From the NCBI RefSeq assembly GCF_002310815.1, contig NZ_CP011032.1:2768001-2832000 (forward strand): DNA of 64,000 nt. The letters are read 5' to 3'. A program made the translations under genes and the position numbers. Shown piece by piece: positions 12,330-38,812 of the stretch. This DNA is from Pseudoalteromonas tunicata. Its GTDB lineage: Bacteria > Pseudomonadota > Gammaproteobacteria > Enterobacterales > Alteromonadaceae. The notes beneath the pieces were generated by a model. It searched no databases, was not told the DNA's origin, and was given only the letters and a program-made list of their open reading frames with translations. Numbering within the stretch: the stretch's first letter is position 1; every line of letters starts with the position of its first letter.

Positions 12330-13247
12330 TTAATATCCATTTTTTCGATTAATACAATTAATTAGCGCATTTCCAGATTGACTGCGTTGATAATTATCTG
12401 CAATTTGCGCCACAACGGTATTGATATCGGTCAAAGCCGATGCATGGGGTGTAATTGTTATTTGTTTACAACGCCAAAATGGATGATCCGCGGGCAATGG
12501 TTCGATAGTAAATACATCTAAAATAGCGTGGCTTATTGTTTGTTTTTGCAGCGCAACAAATAAATCATCTTCAATTAAATGCTTACCACGTCCAACATTG
12601 ATTAATACACTATGGTTTGGCATGACACTAAATAATTGCTGATTTAAGACTCCTTGAGTTTTTATTGTCAGTGGCAACAGACAAACTAAATAATCCGACT
12701 CTGACGCCATGCTTAACAATCCCTCATCGCCATAAAAACAAGTCACAGTTTGATGATTTTTTTCATTTTTAGACCATGCGCTCACAACAAAATTATTTTC
12801 CACCAATACTTCTGCTACTTTTTGTCCTAATTGACCAAATCCTAAAATCCCTACTCTACGCCCTTGATGGGCTCGTTTAGGATACCAATGTGCGCCTTGC
12901 TGCTGCTGTAAATACTGAGACACCCGCAACTTATACGCCAAAATATGGCCAAGCACATATTCAGCCATATCGTGTGCCAGCATCGAATCGACGATACGGG
13001 CAATCGGCACATCAGGCACGGCATCACTCAATAAACCATCCACTCCAGCGCCAAAAGACGATATTGCTCTCACATTTGGCAGCTGCTGCCAAATATCTTC
13101 TGGCGGCAACCAAGCTAATACAAACGTTACCGCGTCAAAATCTTGCACGTTAGGCCAAACTTCAATGGTTTCGCCGGGTAATAACTCAAATAACTTTTGT
13201 TCTAACTTGGTGGTATCGCGATTGGGGATCACAATTAATAAGCTCAT
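12330..13247 (-). CDS. ghrA: D-2-hydroxyacid dehydrogenase, glyoxylate/hydroxypyruvate reductase A type
   Basis: A 305-residue NAD(P)-dependent reductase of 2-oxoacids. The Rossmann motif is GILGFGQLGQKVAEVL. The catalytic Arg lies in LINVGRGKHL, a Glu in FTIEPLP and the His in ITITPHASA. Size and pattern fit the GhrA branch, which acts on glyoxylate and hydroxypyruvate, but the exact substrate is inferred. I chose ATG 13247 (MSLLIVIPN) because ACAGGAAT lies just upstream; the frame extends five codons further. It is divergent from the PlcP gene. The first heptamer of that gene's Pho-box array lies 9-15 bp upstream of this start codon. Confidence 0.8.
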   Translation of the reverse strand: MSLLIVIPNRDTTKLEQKLFELLPGETIEVWPNVQDFDAVTFVLAWLPPEDIWQQLPNVRAISSFGAGVDGLLSDAVPDVPIARIVDSMLAHDMAEYVLGHILAYKLRVSQYLQQQQGAHWYPKRAHQGRRVGILGFGQLGQKVAEVLVENNFVVSAWSKNEKNHQTVTCFYGDEGLLSMASESDYLVCLLPLTIKTQGVLNQQLFSVMPNHSVLINVGRGKHLIEDDLFVALQKQTISHAILDVFTIEPLPADHPFWRCKQITITPHASALTDINTVVAQIADNYQRSQSGNALINCINRKNGY

Positions 13248-13255
13248 ATTTATTC

Positions 13256-13311
13256 CTGTCATTAAAGCATCATGGTTTCATCATTGCTTTGTCACCAAGG
13301 CTTTTTACTTT
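13256..13311 (+). promoter_or_regulatory. Pho-box array and -10 element upstream of the PlcP-type gene
   Basis: Four heptamers stand on an exact 11-bp period: CTGTCAT (13256), GCATCAT (13267), TCATCAT (13278) and TTGTCAC (13289). PhoB binds CTGTCAT-like direct repeats spaced by 4 bp, so period and sequence both fit. Ten bases after the last heptamer comes TACTTT (13306-13311), a plausible -10 with no separate -35, as in PhoB-dependent promoters. The same layout recurs before olsF. Confidence 0.75.
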
Positions 13312-13349
13312 TAAATCATACTGAGTTTGACTAACAAGGTACCCGTGTA

Positions 13350-14138
13350 ATGGATAAAACACTCAAAGTAAAAAGTCTCTTTATCTCCGATTTACACTTA
13401 GGCTATAAAGATTGTAAAGCAAACTATTTGCTCGATATGTTAAAACATATCCAACCTGAAGTCCTCTATCTGGTTGGTGATATCATTGATTTTCAATCCC
13501 TTAAAAACAAGCTTTACTGGCCTAATAGCCATTATGAAGTACTGCAACAATTCATTGCTATGCAACAACAAGGCTGTAAAGTTATTTATATTCCCGGTAA
13601 TCATGATGCCTCAGTTCGGCGCTACGCTAATCATTTTTTTGCAGGGATCGAAATAAAACAACAAGTCATTTTTCAAAGCCTTTCAGGTAAACGATTTTTA
13701 GTCTGTCATGGCGATATTTTTGATGCCGAAGTCTGCCTCGGAAAATGGCAAGCACGTTTAGGTGATGTCCTCTATGATTTATTATTATTTTTAAACCGTT
13801 GGTATAACAAAGCTCGAAGATTACTTGGCTTAGAATATTTATCGTTAGCGGCTTACATCAAATCGAAAATCAGTGGCGCCACATTAGCTATTAGCCGCTA
13901 TCAAGATGCCGCCTTAAAATACGCAAAAAAACAAAATCTTGATGGCGTGATTTGCGGCCATATTCACAGCGCCGAAATTGTTTATAAACATCAAATGATA
14001 TACATCAACGATGGTGACTGGATAGAAAGCTGCACTGCCTTTGTTGAACATCACGATGCAAGCATGGAACTTATTTTTTGGACTGAACAACAAAAAAGTA
14101 TCGAAAAAATCAGTTCGAACGTCGTTCATGCCGCTTAA
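13350..14138 (+). CDS. plcP: PlcP-type metallophosphoesterase (phospholipase C-like)
   Basis: A 262-residue calcineurin-like phosphoesterase. The metal-binding motifs are all present: SDLHLG, GDIIDF, PGNHD, CHGDIFD and GHIHSAE. The sequence pattern (YLVGDIID, INDGDWIESCTAFVEH) fits the COG2908 branch containing Sinorhizobium PlcP, which strips headgroups from membrane phospholipids during phosphate starvation. Automatic annotation often calls this branch UDP-2,3-diacylglucosamine diphosphatase (LpxH). Two facts favour PlcP: the Pho-box array upstream and the ornithine-lipid synthase gene just downstream. Diacylglycerol and phosphate would be its products. The start at 13350 follows AAGGT. Confidence 0.8.
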   Translation: MDKTLKVKSLFISDLHLGYKDCKANYLLDMLKHIQPEVLYLVGDIIDFQSLKNKLYWPNSHYEVLQQFIAMQQQGCKVIYIPGNHDASVRRYANHFFAGIEIKQQVIFQSLSGKRFLVCHGDIFDAEVCLGKWQARLGDVLYDLLLFLNRWYNKARRLLGLEYLSLAAYIKSKISGATLAISRYQDAALKYAKKQNLDGVICGHIHSAEIVYKHQMIYINDGDWIESCTAFVEHHDASMELIFWTEQQKSIEKISSNVVHAA

Positions 14139-14145
14139 TTTCACC

Positions 14146-14212
14146 CTGACAATTTAGCGTCTTAAAACTGTCATTTTTTTAACGCTAATTTGTCACAGCC
14201 TCTTTTTAATCT
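14146..14212 (+). promoter_or_regulatory. Pho-box array and -10 element upstream of olsF
   Basis: Heptamers on an 11-bp period: CTGACAA (14146), GCGTCTT (14157), CTGTCAT (14168), TTAACGC (14179, weak) and TTGTCAC (14190). Ten bases after the last one is TAATCT (14207-14212), a -10-like hexamer. The final TTGTCAC and the 10-bp spacing are identical to the array upstream of plcP. This would give olsF its own PhoB-dependent promoter in addition to read-through. Confidence 0.7.
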
Positions 14213-14242
14213 TGCTGTAACTAGATTGTTTTTGAGGTTACT

Positions 14243-15967
14243 ATGATTAATGTCGAAAATGTCGTGGAAAATAATCTTCCACAATTAAACAACTCACCAA
14301 AATTAAAAAGCATCGTCACTAAAGGGCTTGGTTACTTATTGCATGAGCAAGAGTTTGTAAACTTCGCAGCCCAGTATCCGCACCTCAAAGGCATTGAATT
14401 TGTTGAGCAAGTCCTTGAAGAACTTGAATTTAAGACTCGCTTTAACCCCCAACAAATCGACAACATTCCAACTGAAGGTAAGGTAGTGATTGTTTCAAAT
14501 CACCCTATTGGTTCCTTAGATGCCTTAGCATTGATAAACCTTCTTCATCAAGTTCGTAAAGACATTAAGGTCGTTGCAAATCGCATGTTGATGGCGATTG
14601 AGCCAATGCACAACTTATTATTACCCGTTAATAATCTTTCTGGAAATAGTAAAAAGCGAGAGCTTGCAAATATCAGCCAACATTTAAAAAATGAAGGGGC
14701 TCTGCTTATTTTTCCTGCGGGAGAAGTCTCACGCCTAAGCCCAACCGGCATTAAAGACGGCACTTGGAACAGTGGTTTTTTACGCTTTGCCAGTAAATGT
14801 CACGCACCCATTTTGCCAATTCAAATTATAGCCAAAAACAGCCCGCTTTTTTATGGCACTTCAATGATTTACAAACCGCTTGCAAGCTTATTATTAGTGC
14901 AAGAAATGTTTAAGCAACGCCATAAATCCCTTGAGTTTGAAATTGGCTCTCCCATCGCACCAGAAGCTTACACACTCGATAATGTCAGTGATAAAGTGGT
15001 TGCAGAGTTAATAAAAAAACAACTGTATAGACTCAATAGCAAAAAAGAATTGCCATTTAAAACTCAAAATCCAATTGCGCAACCAGAGTGCCGCAAAAGC
15101 TTAAAACAAGCGATTGAAGCCACTGAATTATTGGGCATGACCCAAGATAAAATGCAAATTCGACTGTATCGTTATGATGGCAGCTCCCCTATTTTTAGAG
15201 AGCTAGGTCGGTTGCGTGAAATTGCTTTTCGTGCGGTAGGTGAAGGGACAGGTAAACGTCGTGACATTGATAAATATGATATGACTTATCAGCATTTAGT
15301 ATTGTGGGATAACGACCAGTTAGAAATTGTTGGCGCCTACCGATTAGCAGATGCCGATACCATTACCGAAAAAGAAGGCCATGATGGCCTCTATACTGCA
15401 AGCTTATTTAACTACCTACCGACAATGCAGCCTTATTTTGCTCAAGGATTAGAGCTGGGCCGCAGCTTCGTACAACCTAAATATTGGGGTAAACGAAGTC
15501 TAGATTATTTATGGTACGGAATTGGGGCATTTATTACTCGCTACCCTAAATATCGCTACCTGTTTGGCCCGGTGAGTATTTCCAATAGCTTACCAATGAC
15601 AGCTAAATCGCTGTTGGTTTACTACTACCAACATTATTTTCCAGCCGCAAATACTTTAGCCCAACCACAATGTCCATTCATCTCCGATGCTAATCAACAA
15701 GCTGAATTTGAAGGGATTTTTGTTGGTAATGATGCCAAAGCAGACTTTGTAACGTTAAAGCATTTACTGGCCAATATGGGCGTACAAATACCGACGTTAT
15801 TAAAACAATATTCTGATTTATGCCACGATAACGGTGTTCAGTTTTTAAGTTTCAGCGTCGACCCTGAATTTAACTACTGCGTAGATGGTTTAGTTCTAGT
15901 TGACCTAGAGGCGCTAAAAGAGCAAAAAATAAAACGCTATTTAGCAGTACATCAAACCTCTCATTAA
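14243..15967 (+). CDS. olsF: Bifunctional ornithine-lipid synthase OlsF (acyltransferase fusion)
   Basis: A 574-residue fusion of two acyltransferases. The N-terminal half is a PlsC-type O-acyltransferase (VSNHPIGSLDAL as the H-x4-D box; FPAGEVSR further on). The C-terminal half is a GNAT-like N-acyltransferase of the OlsB type (REIAFRAVGEGTGKRRDIDKYD; GAYRLADAD; LELGRSFVQP). This order matches OlsF of Serratia, where the C-terminal part N-acylates ornithine and the N-terminal part adds the second acyl chain. The product is a phosphorus-free ornithine lipid. The start at 14243 follows TTTGAGGTT. It lies 104 bp after the PlcP gene with its own Pho-box array. Substrate is inferred from family. 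Confidence 0.88.
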   Translation: MINVENVVENNLPQLNNSPKLKSIVTKGLGYLLHEQEFVNFAAQYPHLKGIEFVEQVLEELEFKTRFNPQQIDNIPTEGKVVIVSNHPIGSLDALALINLLHQVRKDIKVVANRMLMAIEPMHNLLLPVNNLSGNSKKRELANISQHLKNEGALLIFPAGEVSRLSPTGIKDGTWNSGFLRFASKCHAPILPIQIIAKNSPLFYGTSMIYKPLASLLLVQEMFKQRHKSLEFEIGSPIAPEAYTLDNVSDKVVAELIKKQLYRLNSKKELPFKTQNPIAQPECRKSLKQAIEATELLGMTQDKMQIRLYRYDGSSPIFRELGRLREIAFRAVGEGTGKRRDIDKYDMTYQHLVLWDNDQLEIVGAYRLADADTITEKEGHDGLYTASLFNYLPTMQPYFAQGLELGRSFVQPKYWGKRSLDYLWYGIGAFITRYPKYRYLFGPVSISNSLPMTAKSLLVYYYQHYFPAANTLAQPQCPFISDANQQAEFEGIFVGNDAKADFVTLKHLLANMGVQIPTLLKQYSDLCHDNGVQFLSFSVDPEFNYCVDGLVLVDLEALKEQKIKRYLAVHQTSH

Positions 15968-15989
15968 TAAAAAAATAGTTTCGAAAAAT

Positions 15990-16017
15990 AAATAGGCCGC
16001 TAAATAGCGGCCTATTT
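15990..16017. terminator. Bidirectional terminator between olsF and dapE
   Basis: The long stem AAATAGGCCGCTA / TAGCGGCCTATTT has a 2-base apex, with A/T-rich flanks on both sides. It sits between the two converging stop codons. Confidence 0.9.
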
Positions 16018-16027
16018 ATTTATAAAT

Positions 16028-17197
16028 TTAAGCCCGTAAAGCCCGATGCAAAAAATCACAATAGATTGCGGTTAACTCTTCAAGCTCATGTAAAGCAACA
16101 CGTTCATTTACTTGATGAATCGAGAAGTTTCTTAAGCCAAACTCAAATACTTGCGTACTTTCTGCTGAAAAAAAGCGACCATCAGAAGTGCCACCGGAGG
16201 TACTTAAAGCGGGGTATATTTGACAGCACTGCACTATGCTTGCTTCAAGTAACTGCATATAATCAACACCATTAAGCTTAGCTCCACCATTATAATAAGC
16301 TTCACAAGGACGCTGCCATGTGAGTTGATAATTTATAGCGCACTTTCCTACCGCTTGATTAATTAACCAGTGAATATCATTACTTTGATAGCTATGGCTG
16401 TAACGAATATTAAAACGTAATTCAGCAACAGCGGGCACTAAATTATCAAAAGGATTTGGCACATTTAAATCTGTGATCTGTAAAGAGGTTTTAGACCCTT
16501 CATTATCTTTTTGCCAATCAATTGCCAATAACTGCTGCATTACTTCACTTATTTGGTGCGCGGCATTAGAAGCAAGCTCCGGATAAGCAACATGTCCCGC
16601 TTTTCCATAAACCGCTAAATGGCCAGATAACGCACCTCGACGACCATTTTTGATAGTATCGCCAATTTTATTTTCACAGCTAGGTTCACCGACTAGGCAT
16701 GCGTCTAAGGTAATACCTTGCTCGGCTAAATGTGCCAGCATCATTTTAGTTCCAAATTCAGCTTCCCCTTCCTCATCACTGGTAATGAGCCAATAAAAGC
16801 TGCCAGATTGAGGATAAGGTTGAGCTAACCATAACTCGCATGCGCGAAGCATGGCTGCAATGGCCCCTTTCATATCAGCAGCGCCTCTGCCATATATGTG
16901 TTGATCAATAATTTGGCCGCTAAAAGGTTCGCTATACCAGCCTTTGTTATTTGCAGGTACAACATCAACATGCCCGCAAAAACCAATATTTGGCCCTTCG
17001 CCAAATGTTCGTTTAGCAATAAAGTTTCTTACTCCTTCTTGCTCAAGCCATGTTATTTCAAAATCTAACAAGACAAGTTTTTCAGATAACCAAGCTAAAG
17101 CTCCAGCGTCATTTGGAGTAATTGATTTAAACTGGATAAGTTGCTGTAAATAACGTGCAACTTCGCTACATGGCAGCTGAGATTGTATTGACTGCAT
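16028..17197 (-). CDS. dapE: Succinyl-diaminopimelate desuccinylase
   Basis: An M20-family zinc amidohydrolase that releases LL-diaminopimelate in lysine and peptidoglycan precursor synthesis. Metal and catalytic motifs: GFCGHVDVVPA (His, Asp), GRGAADMKGA, and the catalytic Glu in SDEEGEAEFG. Near the C-terminus is TSGGTSDGRF. I chose ATG 17197 (MQSIQSQLPC), which gives 389 residues. The frame opens at a TTG at 17224, but the nine extra residues have no support. It converges on olsF. Confidence 0.9.
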   Translation of the reverse strand: MQSIQSQLPCSEVARYLQQLIQFKSITPNDAGALAWLSEKLVLLDFEITWLEQEGVRNFIAKRTFGEGPNIGFCGHVDVVPANNKGWYSEPFSGQIIDQHIYGRGAADMKGAIAAMLRACELWLAQPYPQSGSFYWLITSDEEGEAEFGTKMMLAHLAEQGITLDACLVGEPSCENKIGDTIKNGRRGALSGHLAVYGKAGHVAYPELASNAAHQISEVMQQLLAIDWQKDNEGSKTSLQITDLNVPNPFDNLVPAVAELRFNIRYSHSYQSNDIHWLINQAVGKCAINYQLTWQRPCEAYYNGGAKLNGVDYMQLLEASIVQCCQIYPALSTSGGTSDGRFFSAESTQVFEFGLRNFSIHQVNERVALHELEELTAIYCDFLHRALRA

Positions 17198-17335
17198 AAA
17201 TGAGTCACTCGCATCGATAATCAAGAAACTCTATTTAACCGAGCAAAGATGTCATTAACATGTCAATGATCAAAAATATACGAAAGTTTAATGCACACTA
17301 AACAGCAAAAAAACACCACGCTAGTGCTGAAAAAC

Positions 17336-36146: not shown

Positions 36147-37351
36147 TCAAGAAAATAATGATCTAAAAATAGCAGCAAACATACGGGTGTTTTTATCTAA
36201 ATCAAAATGCTGCTGAATGTGAAAAATAGCATGCTGCTGCATGGTTAAAGTCGAAGAAGGATCTAAAGCGGCTTTTTCGATTGCGTCACTTAATGCTTGT
36301 ACGTCATTAACAGGTACTAATATTCCAGCTTTGCCAGCATCTAATAGTTCAGGGATCCCAGCAATATCCGGCGCAATCACTAACACCCCATTTTGCATCG
36401 CTTCCATCAATACCAGCGGCATCCCTTCAGTAATACTCGACAGTACAAATACATCTGCGTTTGCATAAGAGGCCAATACCTCATGGTGAAACTTTGCACC
36501 AACAAGTTGCACATGCTCAGCTAAAGAATATTGCTCAATAAGCTGCGTAAGCGCTTGACGCTCAGGACCCTCGCCAATGATTGTACAATTAAATTTAATA
36601 TTGTTTTTTTGCAGCAAACTACATGCTTCAATGAGTAAATGCTGGGCTTTATGTATCGATAAGCGCCCTACAGATAAAATCTCTAACGGCTGCTGTAATT
36701 GATTCGTCTGTGGTGAGACAGATAATTTTGCCGGCACACCTAAAGGAATGACTTGGCAACAGTTTAGATCTACCGCAGGAAAATACTTGTTAAGATAATC
36801 AAGATTAAACTGGGAAATTGATACGATTTTATCTGCATTTTGCATCTTCAGCGCTAAATCGGGCACTTTATCAAAAGTAAGATCAGCACCATGTAAAGTA
36901 ATCGAATAGGGAGTATCACTTATGTACTTGAGCCAAAATGCAATTGCAGTTGCACCATAGGTAAAATGGCTATGAACCCAAGTTAGTTCAGGATAACGGC
37001 GTTTTAATAATAAGGCGCCCGTTAAATGGGCAATTGAAGTTTTGAGCTTTTCTTCTAATAAAAATGCTCTTAAAAGTGCTTTAAAATAAACAACAGGCGA
37101 AGAAATTAAAAATAACCAATGCGATAATAACAACTCACCCCATCGCGCCTCACATAAATAGCTCACCTCATTTTGCATCGCTTTCATGTGAGGGTGTACT
37201 TCATTATCTGAAGGTTTATGACTTGAGATAATCTCAAACTCTAAACCTTCAGATTTAAGCCTCTGATACTGATCGAAAATAAAAGTTTCACTTAAAATCG
37301 GAAATATAGAGTTTAAAAAAAGCAGTTTTTTTTTGAGTGTTCCGATTGCAT
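36147..37351 (-). CDS. Glycosyltransferase family 4, start and body in different frames (A9 slippery tract)
   Basis: A GT-B enzyme of about 400 residues. The N-terminal LFLNSIFPILSETFIFDQY and the C-terminal EILSVGRLSIHKAQHLLIEAC and SSITEGMPLVLMEAMQNG are typical GT4. The natural start is ATG 37351, immediately after the wcaJ stop and 8 bp after AGGGAG. Read from there, the frame meets a stop after 12 codons. The body is in the -1 frame, reached at an A9 tract (37326-37334) carrying A-AAA-AAC. With a -1 slip or one extra A the product begins MQSEHSKKKLLFLN, as expected for the family. Without that, only TTG codons inside wcaJ, with no good ribosome binding site, could start the body frame. 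A sequencing error is also possible. Confidence 0.75.
37326..37334 (-). repeat. Homopolymer A9 tract (slippery/phase-variable candidate) in the GT4 gene
   Basis: Nine A on the coding strand at codons 6-9 of the GT4 reading frame. Read in the ATG frame it is TCA AAA AAA AAC, which contains the X-XXY-YYZ heptamer A-AAA-AAC. A run of seven T follows four bases later (37315-37321). Runs of nine A are also prone to RNA-polymerase slippage and to replication slippage. Confidence 0.8.
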
Positions 37352-38812
37352 TTAAGAAGCTCCCTTGCCTTTTAAAACCGCAGGGATGGTTTTTAGTAAT
37401 ATTTTGATATCTAACCAATGATCCCAATTGTCAATGTAATCGCAATCAAGTTTCATCCATTCATTAAATGATAAGTTATTACGGCCATCAACCTGCCAGC
37501 TTCCTGTGATCCCCGGCAATACACTTAATCGTCTTAAATGCCTAAAATCAGTGAAACGGTCATAATCTGCTTTTGGTAAAGGACGCGGTCCAACCAAACT
37601 CATATCCCCTTTAAGGACATTAATTAATTGCGGTAGTTCATCGATACTTGATTTGCGTAAAAAACGGCCTAACGCCGTGATCCGCGGATCATTTTTCATT
37701 TTAAACGCCGCGCCATCAAGTTCATTGCTAGTTTCTCTAAGCTTATCTTGCATGGCATCTGCACCGGCAATCATGGTTCTAAATTTGATCAGTTTAAAAA
37801 TGCGACCATTATAACCATAACGTTCTTGCACAAAAAACGCACCACCGCGTGATTGCAAGTTAATTAAAATAATACACACTAAAAATAACGGACTTAATAC
37901 TATTAAACCAAGTACAGCCGCAGTTAAATCAATAATACGTTTAAAAATAAATGCACCACCAATATGGTAACCAGATTGTACAGTAAGCTCTGGTGCTGCT
38001 TTATCAGTAGATGAAAAACTAATATTATCGAGATTAATTTTTGTCATTTCAGTATTTTTAAATAATGTACTGACCACTGAAGCCATAGGAAAGCGTAACA
38101 TTATACCTTGGGAATGAGCCCGGTATATCACACTATCTAAATCTGGATTTCTGGCGGAGGTATCAGTAAAAATAACAAGATCATCAATAATGTTGTATTT
38201 CAAAATTTCGTCAAAATCTTTAAAAGTGCCAATCACTTTATCGTTATGATTTGAACCTAATGCATCTGCAGACAAATGGCCAATGATATGGCTTTCTTGA
38301 TTTTTAAGTTTATTTGCATACGCAAATGCGTACTCACAGTCACCTAAAAATAAAATATGGCGGCGATTTGAATCACCTAGGTGGAAGCGTTTAATCGAGA
38401 ACCAGACTATGTGTCTAAATAATAATGTTAATACAACCGTAGCAGGAAATAATACCAGTATAACCAACCAACCGGTGAAGATAGAAATATTCAGTAAATT
38501 ACCCGTAGCGAGTACAAGAATATTAATAATCAGTTGTGCTTTAATAATCGAAAAAGCATCTGTTATTAAGGTATGAGGTAAATACTTAGGCTGATAAAGC
38601 GAGAGTTGCTCAAAGAAAAAACTATATAAGCCAAACAAAATAGAAACAATAATAAAATTGACCATCGAAACACGCATAGTCAAAAAATCATAGATATTAT
38701 TCGATTCAATTAACGTACTGTTAAAACCGACTAAAATAAATAGTGATACTATAAATGCTAGTAAATCACTAAATTTAAAAACCTTATAGATTAAATTATT
38801 GGAGCGAGTCAC
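37352..38812 (-). CDS. wcaJ: Undecaprenyl-phosphate sugar-1-phosphate transferase (WcaJ family)
   Basis: A polyprenyl glycosylphosphotransferase of 486 residues that starts the EPS repeat unit by moving a hexose-1-phosphate to undecaprenyl phosphate. Four N-terminal membrane helices are followed by a CoA-binding-like domain (RRHILFLGDCEYA). A re-entrant helix precedes the catalytic Bac_transf domain: KFRTMIAGADA, SSIDELPQLINVLKGDMSLVGPRPL and LPGITGSWQVDGRN. Start choice: the frame opens at GTG 38821, but GTG 38812 (MTRSNNLIYK) has AAGG 8 bp upstream. The GT4 gene follows directly. Confidence 0.92.
   Translation of the reverse strand: MTRSNNLIYKVFKFSDLLAFIVSLFILVGFNSTLIESNNIYDFLTMRVSMVNFIIVSILFGLYSFFFEQLSLYQPKYLPHTLITDAFSIIKAQLIINILVLATGNLLNISIFTGWLVILVLFPATVVLTLLFRHIVWFSIKRFHLGDSNRRHILFLGDCEYAFAYANKLKNQESHIIGHLSADALGSNHNDKVIGTFKDFDEILKYNIIDDLVIFTDTSARNPDLDSVIYRAHSQGIMLRFPMASVVSTLFKNTEMTKINLDNISFSSTDKAAPELTVQSGYHIGGAFIFKRIIDLTAAVLGLIVLSPLFLVCIILINLQSRGGAFFVQERYGYNGRIFKLIKFRTMIAGADAMQDKLRETSNELDGAAFKMKNDPRITALGRFLRKSSIDELPQLINVLKGDMSLVGPRPLPKADYDRFTDFRHLRRLSVLPGITGSWQVDGRNNLSFNEWMKLDCDYIDNWDHWLDIKILLKTIPAVLKGKGAS

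Follow-up and report, generated by a model that had tools for sequence, protein, structure and literature searches.

Introduction

Breakdown of membrane phospholipids by PlcP and synthesis of ornithine lipids are each an established response to phosphate shortage; they are grouped together in work on Pseudomonas putida BIRD-1 (PMC5082522) and have been called independent in work on Ruegeria (PMC9938194). Here we analyze a locus of Pseudoalteromonas tunicata at which a gene for a PlcP-type phosphoesterase is followed by a gene for a fused ornithine lipid synthase, OlsF, each behind a predicted array of PhoB-binding repeats. The window is the whole stretch of 64,000 nucleotides that was analyzed (contig NZ_CP011032.1, positions 2,768,001 to 2,832,000 of the forward strand), and coordinates below count from its first letter. 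We regard the pair, with a probability of roughly 0.8, as a two-gene module of the Pho regulon that would serve to spare phosphorus.

In P. putida BIRD-1, PlcP and the acyltransferases OlsAB depend on PhoBR, so that phospholipid breakdown and ornithine lipid synthesis are jointly regulated there, as predicted for our locus. The two systems differ in that P. putida BIRD-1 uses two separate acyltransferases, OlsA and OlsB, and that its plcP (1390) and olsAB (0974-0975) are not neighbors by locus tag (PMC5082522). Vibrio cholerae has a bifunctional OlsF (VC0489) that is controlled by PhoB, is produced at low phosphate, and is required for full growth under that condition; no phospholipase neighbor is mentioned in the main text of that paper, which has no occurrence of the word 'phospholipase' (PMC12186959). 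A gene for a lipid without phosphorus likewise adjoins plcP in the plcP-agt and plcP-btaAB clusters (Sebastian et al., PMC4796936; P. aeruginosa PA3219-PA3218, PMC8528852; Methylosinus OB3b, PMC9239053), and Pho boxes at plcP clusters have been reported (PMC4796936, PMC8528852). The partner enzymes in these clusters consume the diacylglycerol from PlcP, whereas the partner in the window, OlsF, is not known to do so, and each gene of our pair has its own array. Membership in the plcP-agt group is defined by an adjacent glycosyltransferase or betaine lipid synthase that uses diacylglycerol; here the adjacent gene encodes OlsF.

None of the six context types of plcP in the main text of PMC4796936, taken without its Supplementary Table S2, names an ornithine lipid synthase, and neighbors of plcP vary among methanotrophs (PMC9239053). 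In the open-access papers that name both PlcP and OlsF (PMC5082522, PMC9938194, PMC6298996, PMC9239053), the parts available never describe the two genes as neighbors; subscription papers lie mostly outside this scope. Provisionally, the plcP-olsF arrangement is apparently uncatalogued in print, and its parts are known. An earlier, sequence-only reading of the window had contrasted the pair with the plcP-agt and olsBA arrangements. This contrast stands with regard to the fused OlsF partner and the array in front of each gene, but the pair also occurs in many other genomes.

Results

Identity of the two proteins

The first open reading frame (13350..14138, forward strand, 262 amino acids) is predicted to encode a COG2908-type metallophosphoesterase, a probable intracellular phospholipase C. 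Its product matches the calcineurin-like phosphoesterase family Metallophos of Pfam with 54.4 bits (cut-off 21.5), and in an alignment of 20 sequences the residues D14, H16, G43-D44, G83-N84-H85-D86, H120, G203-H204, and H206 are invariant. These positions form the motifs D-x-H, GD, GNHD, H, and GHxH, which we take to be the metal-site motifs of metallophosphoesterases. On this protein, models of LpxH score 41.6 and 39.6 bits versus cut-offs of 134 and 190, and the same genome encodes a separate LpxH-like protein (L002) that groups with Escherichia coli LpxH in a tree of 81 proteins. In this tree, which was made by a quick method and has a long separating branch and many unsure inner forks, 14 LpxH proteins, including that of E. 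coli, are split from 67 PlcP-type proteins, including that of the window, at 100 % in the Shimodaira-Hasegawa-like approximate likelihood ratio test (SH-aLRT). The PlcP side contains proteins of Erythrobacter sp. SD-21, Labrys, Burkholderia, Sphingomonas, Novispirillum, and others, which stand in for the assayed PlcP sequences of Sinorhizobium, Phaeobacter MED193, Pseudomonas, and SAR11. Placement of the phosphoesterase with PlcP and not with LpxH, as the sequence-only reading had proposed, is thus upheld by the phylogeny. At the family level, sequence comparison indicates that the first gene is a PlcP-type metallophosphoesterase, and its product probably breaks down phosphorus-containing membrane lipids.

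LpxH as the identity of the first gene was considered and is rejected on the basis of the model scores under the cut-offs, the separate LpxH of the genome, and the split in the tree. The solved structure closest to the window's PlcP by sequence is that of an LpxH (5k8k, E 3.4e-6). Public records label most of the named PlcP-type relatives (for example, P0004, P0006, and P0011) as UDP-2,3-diacylglucosamine diphosphatase, hydrolase, or LpxH. PlcP genes of these bacteria often bear the name LpxH, so that surveys based on names can miss them.

The second open reading frame (14243..15967, forward strand, 574 amino acids) is predicted to encode a bifunctional ornithine lipid synthase composed of an N-terminal O-acyltransferase and a C-terminal GNAT N-acyltransferase. 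Over profile positions 1-569 of 570, its product scores 857.5 bits against the curated model NF052615.1 (cut-off 620). The Pfam domains stand in the expected order, Acyltransf_2/Acyltransferase (Acyltransf_2 at 26-265) followed by Acetyltransf_5 at 324-424. The glycine-lipid models GlsA and GlsB remain under their cut-offs, and no solved structure is found for OlsF by sequence at E 0.01. The assignment as a bifunctional OlsF, made earlier from the open reading frames, is confirmed by the full-length match to the curated model and by the fused acyltransferase and GNAT domains, and the enzyme probably makes a phosphorus-free substitute lipid.

Predicted PhoB arrays

The array upstream of plcP (13256..13295, forward strand) consists of four heptamers at 11-bp steps, CTGTCAT, GCATCAT, TCATCAT, and TTGTCAC, the first and last of which are strong. 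Five heptamer positions at the same steps make up the array upstream of olsF (14146..14196, forward strand): CTGACAA, GCGTCTT, CTGTCAT, TTAACGC, and TTGTCAC. Read letter by letter, TTGTCAC closes both arrays, and a -10-like hexamer of the form TA-N3-T begins exactly 10 bp past each last heptamer (TACTTT at 13306..13311 and TAATCT at 14207..14212, both on the forward strand). The sequence-only reading had located both genes and both arrays correctly and had described these endings; it had counted two weak units before olsF, where we find three (units 1, 2, and 4) beside two strong ones. A -10 hexamer about 10 bp past the array is the typical spacing of Pho promoters.

The arrays were scored with a heptamer matrix of 14 units, the best unit pair from each of seven E. 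coli Pho promoters (phoA, phoB, pstS, phnC, ugpB, phoE, and phoH), by scanning both strands of the window for series of units in an 11-bp register (127,922 four-unit positions). With four units, position 13256 ranks first (23.1 bits) and position 14157, inside the olsF array, second (13.7), and the next independent site reaches 6.5; with five units, 14146 ranks first (14.1 bits) and 13256 second (13.3), followed by an independent site at -0.8. The two-unit scan alone places the plcP site at 13256 only 3rd and the olsF site at 14157 only 10th in the window. In 2000 dinucleotide shuffles of each intergenic stretch, the observed four-unit score was matched by none at either gene, the three-unit score by one for plcP and none for olsF, and the two-unit score by 18 and 23, respectively. 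The proposal of PhoB sites here is thus sustained by a weight-matrix scan of the region, in which both arrays lie above background at ranks 1 and 2. The array matrix was chosen because the plain consensus detects poorly: across the whole genome, the plain two-heptamer pattern gives 32 matches versus 19 for the reversed pattern.

A consensus scan of 13200-16100 for promoters and terminators detected a promoter of the sigma-70 type at neither array, and the stretch between plcP and olsF had no terminator. A hairpin that resembles a terminator (13286-13301) coincides in part with the end of the plcP array; three such hairpins were found versus 2.6 expected, and this one is probably due to chance.

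The genome encodes PhoB (370.9 bits, cut-off 296.2), and a frame of 447 amino acids lies downstream of phoB, where phoR would be expected. Scored with the same matrix, pstS of this genome has a four-unit array of 23.0 bits, equal to the 23.1 bits of the plcP array, and phoB has a two-unit site of 14.2 bits. Among 30 loci of this genome seeded with the pattern, the top three Pho places belong to a DUF3083 gene, to pstS, and to a gene of which the product matches PstC weakly and in part. The DUF3083 gene (L140 325-1449, reverse strand; C1 near 2,363 kb; Pfam 264 bits) has a four-unit array of 25.9 bits, the strongest among the places scored in this genome, which makes this family of proteins without known function a candidate for membership in the Pho regulon.

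Conservation of the pair and of its arrays

The pairing of plcP and olsF is the common state of the sampled family and no speciality of this genome. In a draw of 118 Alteromonadaceae genomes, 58 had PlcP-grade matches (13 with only weaker or partial matches were dropped), and 74 of 92 genomes with a match reached the OlsF grade (the rest, mostly of about 30 % identity, were dropped). Both genes occur in 57 genomes, and 48 of these, including that of the window, carry them within 300 bp of each other, 46 with plcP followed by olsF, one reversed (G108), and one divergent (G006).

A draw of 394 genomes from the order gave 83 with a PlcP match, 20 of them in the same family. The surroundings of the 63 others were examined for about 3 kb on each side, less at contig ends, with olsF matches taken from tblastn with the window's protein and not from the curated model. 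The two genes lie 66 to 254 bp apart in 30 of these 63 plcP loci (17 of 20 in group f176, 5 of 5 in f184, 4 of 7 in f189, and 4 of 15 in f177), and another 30 show no olsF in the stretch examined. In three more f177 loci, olsF lies 2 to 3 kb upstream of plcP. Three of four f176 sequences group with Shewanella in the tree. The question raised with the sequence-only reading, whether such pairs are conserved in related genomes, is thus answered positively for the family and for other families of the order; PhoB-like arrays recur before both genes in the family and genus loci examined.

Among named plcP loci, for which the best 80 of 577 were taken, an olsF-like match is present at 14, one of them weak, and olsF is directly downstream in nine (Glaciecola, Thalassotalea, three Alteromonas, two further Alteromonadaceae, and two Shewanella). 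The downstream gene belongs to a single cluster at 26 of the 80 loci, and the two members of this cluster that were tested are family 4 glycosyltransferases; 20 of the 80 have no suitable downstream frame. Across the class (274 genomes), both matches occur in 23 genomes outside the family and lie within 5 kb of each other in eight of them, twice in reversed order, five times divergently, and once as plcP followed by olsF across a gap of 1.3 kb; only three of these eight proteins pass the OlsF cut-off, and the other five reach 414 to 434 bits.

Some distant plcP loci have other neighbors. In two Nitrosomonas metagenome-assembled genomes (L187, L192), plcP and olsF are on opposite strands at a distance of about 3 kb; a gene for a patatin-like phospholipase directly follows plcP in L187, and L192 shares that downstream cluster. 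In Burkholderia guangdongensis (L224 6830-8392), the frame after plcP ends in a diacylglycerol kinase domain of the DgkA type, and plcP may there be paired with an enzyme that uses diacylglycerol.

Recurrence of the arrays was assessed in 260 bp upstream of the best matches per search, with three-unit arrays compared to shuffle levels. The genus sets include the window's near relative G217 (L062, L091), and many genus loci are closely related, so that the counts are not independent. Upstream of plcP, where each set comprises 29 loci, the 99 % shuffle level is exceeded at 18 in the family and 12 in the genus (95 % level: 25 and 23); upstream of olsF, it is exceeded at 22 of 26 and 27 of 32, respectively (95 % level: 25 and 32). 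No in-gene control stretch exceeds the 99 % level in any set, and on the reverse strand one locus each does so in the plcP family and olsF genus sets and none in the plcP genus and olsF family sets. After omission of arrays below 4 bits (four plcP family, six plcP genus, one olsF family, and no olsF genus arrays), TA-N3-T stands exactly 10 bp past the last unit in all 32 olsF arrays of the genus, in 19 of 25 olsF arrays of the family, and in 17 of 23 genus plcP arrays. In the 25 family plcP arrays, it occurs at offset 10 in six and in eight at offset 21, which corresponds to one weak repeat further.

An exception within the genus

Among 108 Pseudoalteromonas genomes, 94 have a plcP-grade match, and all 94 have olsF. 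The two genes are adjacent in only two of the 94, the window's genome and G217, and in 26 they lie on one contig more than 100 kb apart. Three broken plcP genes, in pieces or with in-frame stops, are counted among the 94 (G160:C1:1258443-1259196, G175:C167:6184-6881, and G202:C110:32248-33356), and ten more genomes keep olsF with no plcP-grade match; olsF seems to outlive plcP in the genus. Many of the split plcP and olsF genes still have Pho arrays. The site of olsF seems unaltered across the genus: a ghrA-like gene lies within 1.5 kb of olsF at all 32 genus loci examined, and plcP is absent from 31 of them, the 32nd being that of G217.

In the window, the pair is flanked by a divergent gene for a GhrA-like 2-hydroxyacid dehydrogenase (12330..13262, reverse strand; 193 bits, cut-off 403) and a convergent gene for an M20 peptidase, which we read as DapE-like (16028..17224, reverse strand). 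Both flanking genes lie outside the pair and within a conserved block, murJ, rpsT, (smrA, ghrA-like), plcP, olsF, dapE-like, that is partly common to other genera and families. The first ATG of the ghrA-like gene falls within the Pho array, and the next, at 13247, is the likelier start. The plcP-side array could act on this divergent gene, too.

The nearest other PlcP is that of P. ulvae (88 % identity). PlcP proteins of other genus members except G217 share at most 52 % over their full length, and those of the family draw at most 53 %. The closest named PlcP outside the lineage is that of Vibrio nigripulchritudo (P0003, 64 % identity). In a quick tree, the proteins of the window, P. ulvae, and V. 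nigripulchritudo stand apart from 11 other genus sequences; a tree with these 14 PlcP as one clade is not rejected (approximately unbiased test, p-AU 0.80) and is more likely by 16.9 log units. Judged from this identity and the quick tree, horizontal transfer involving plcP of the window's lineage and V. nigripulchritudo, in either direction, is possible. Because the one-clade tree is not rejected and the block is partly shared with other genera, the simpler reading would be that the window keeps the old arrangement and that the rest of the genus moved plcP elsewhere.

Discussion

PlcP releases diacylglycerol, whereas the substrates of OlsF are ornithine and acyl donors, which it joins to ornithine lipid; OlsF is not known to draw on the diacylglycerol from PlcP. 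In the model that we favor, phosphorylated PhoB would bind both predicted repeat arrays at low phosphate and recruit RNA polymerase to the -10 hexamers 10 bp downstream, so that plcP and olsF would be transcribed from separate promoters. PlcP would hydrolyze phospholipids of the membrane, yielding diacylglycerol and a phosphorylated head group, the phosphorus of which could be salvaged. In parallel, OlsF would combine ornithine and acyl donors into ornithine lipid, which would take the place of the lost phospholipid. We infer PhoB binding, induction at low phosphate, both enzyme activities, and the lipid exchange from the sequences described above. The sequence-only reading had described a switch that strips phospholipids and replaces them. 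Its gene identities, its arrays, and the conserved pairing hold; its relay wording does not, because OlsF is not known to use diacylglycerol, and by the known reactions we instead describe two co-regulated arms, which shared regulation, and not a shared intermediate, would match. Diacylglycerol could return to phosphatidic acid via DgkA or go to an unlinked glycosyltransferase. Two DgkA-type kinases exceed the cut-off in the genome, and neither dgkA locus has a Pho array (three-unit scores peak at 1.5 and 4.7 across the two loci). When 222 kb (overlaps included) of the 4.96-Mb genome were searched for an Agt-like glycosyltransferase, one gene of the window (36147-37427) gave partial matches of at most 56 bits.

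Several points weigh against a two-gene Pho module. The weak units, numbers 2 and 3 before plcP and the three before olsF, score only -4.2 to 3.3 bits each, and a plain search of the window for CTGTCAT-N4-CTGTCAT with at most three mismatches returned 10 matches versus 4.75 expected and did not single out the two sites. Of the 17 paired family genomes with both loci examined, only 8 have both genes above the 99 % shuffle level (14 at 95 %). Four of nine named pairs, those of Shewanella fidelis, S. metallivivens, Glaciecola KUL10, and Alteromonadaceae MAG4 (gaps of 33 to 136 bp), have no intergenic array over the 95 % level, and two of the nine, those of BrNp21-10 and S. metallivivens, have none before plcP; in short-gap pairs, olsF may be co-transcribed with plcP by read-through. 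In ocean metagenomes, the abundance of olsF is unlinked to the nitrogen-phosphate index N* (PMC6298996). In one uninfected Pseudoalteromonas strain, the strategy of phospholipid synthesis is reported to stay the same when phosphate changes (PMC12282109); the section concerned deals with enzymes other than PlcP and OlsF, and the word 'ornithine' is absent from that paper. The pair itself is outside the scope of both studies.

The alternative that survives best is that plcP and olsF are neighbors within the regulon without a common task, in which case PlcP would feed an unlinked glycosyltransferase for glycolipid renovation, OlsF would act separately, and linkage would reflect the shared ancestry of the locus. 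The lack of a known reaction between OlsF and diacylglycerol speaks for this, as do the separation of the genes in 92 of the 94 Pseudoalteromonas genomes, the further ten that retain olsF alone by our plcP grade, and the glycosyltransferase cluster downstream of plcP at about a third of the named loci (26 of 80, two members tested). In addition, the pair sits within the old block from murJ and rpsT to the dapE-like gene, so that one ancestral event may explain much of its frequency. Against it, other families of the class link both genes in different orders, in the 8 of 23 genomes mentioned above, with three of the eight passing the OlsF cut-off, and we consider this alternative unlikely. Less probable still is that another regulator of the OmpR/PhoB type reads the arrays in response to a stress other than phosphate shortage. 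In its favor, 19 matches in the genome, one of them above the cut-off, span almost the whole PhoB model; against it, the matrix was built on Pho promoters of E. coli, and similar sites precede this genome's own pstS and phoB. An LpxH-type lipid A enzyme in a general envelope locus is scarcely credible, since the public names of relatives, the weak LpxH model matches, and the best structure match 5k8k are outweighed by scores far under the LpxH cut-offs, by the separate genomic LpxH, and by a tree split that already contradicts it.

Returning to the two-gene Pho module, we conclude that the locus is real, conserved, and functionally plausible, and that the finding is useful and testable and not very surprising. 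More tentatively, and with doubt prevailing over confidence, we propose that plcP-olsF is the main lipid-renovation pair of the Alteromonadaceae, of Shewanella-type bacteria, and of neighboring marine gammaproteobacteria, in a context missing from the published list and with a replacement lipid that is not made from PlcP diacylglycerol. If this were true, only two PhoB promoters would balance breakdown against replacement, and diacylglycerol would be burnt, re-phosphorylated, or tolerated, a logic unlike that of plcP-agt. The pairing thus raises the question of the fate of diacylglycerol. Its presence in five or more families of the order, with many marine gammaproteobacteria among them, suggests that phospholipid breakdown and ornithine lipid synthesis form one programme there.

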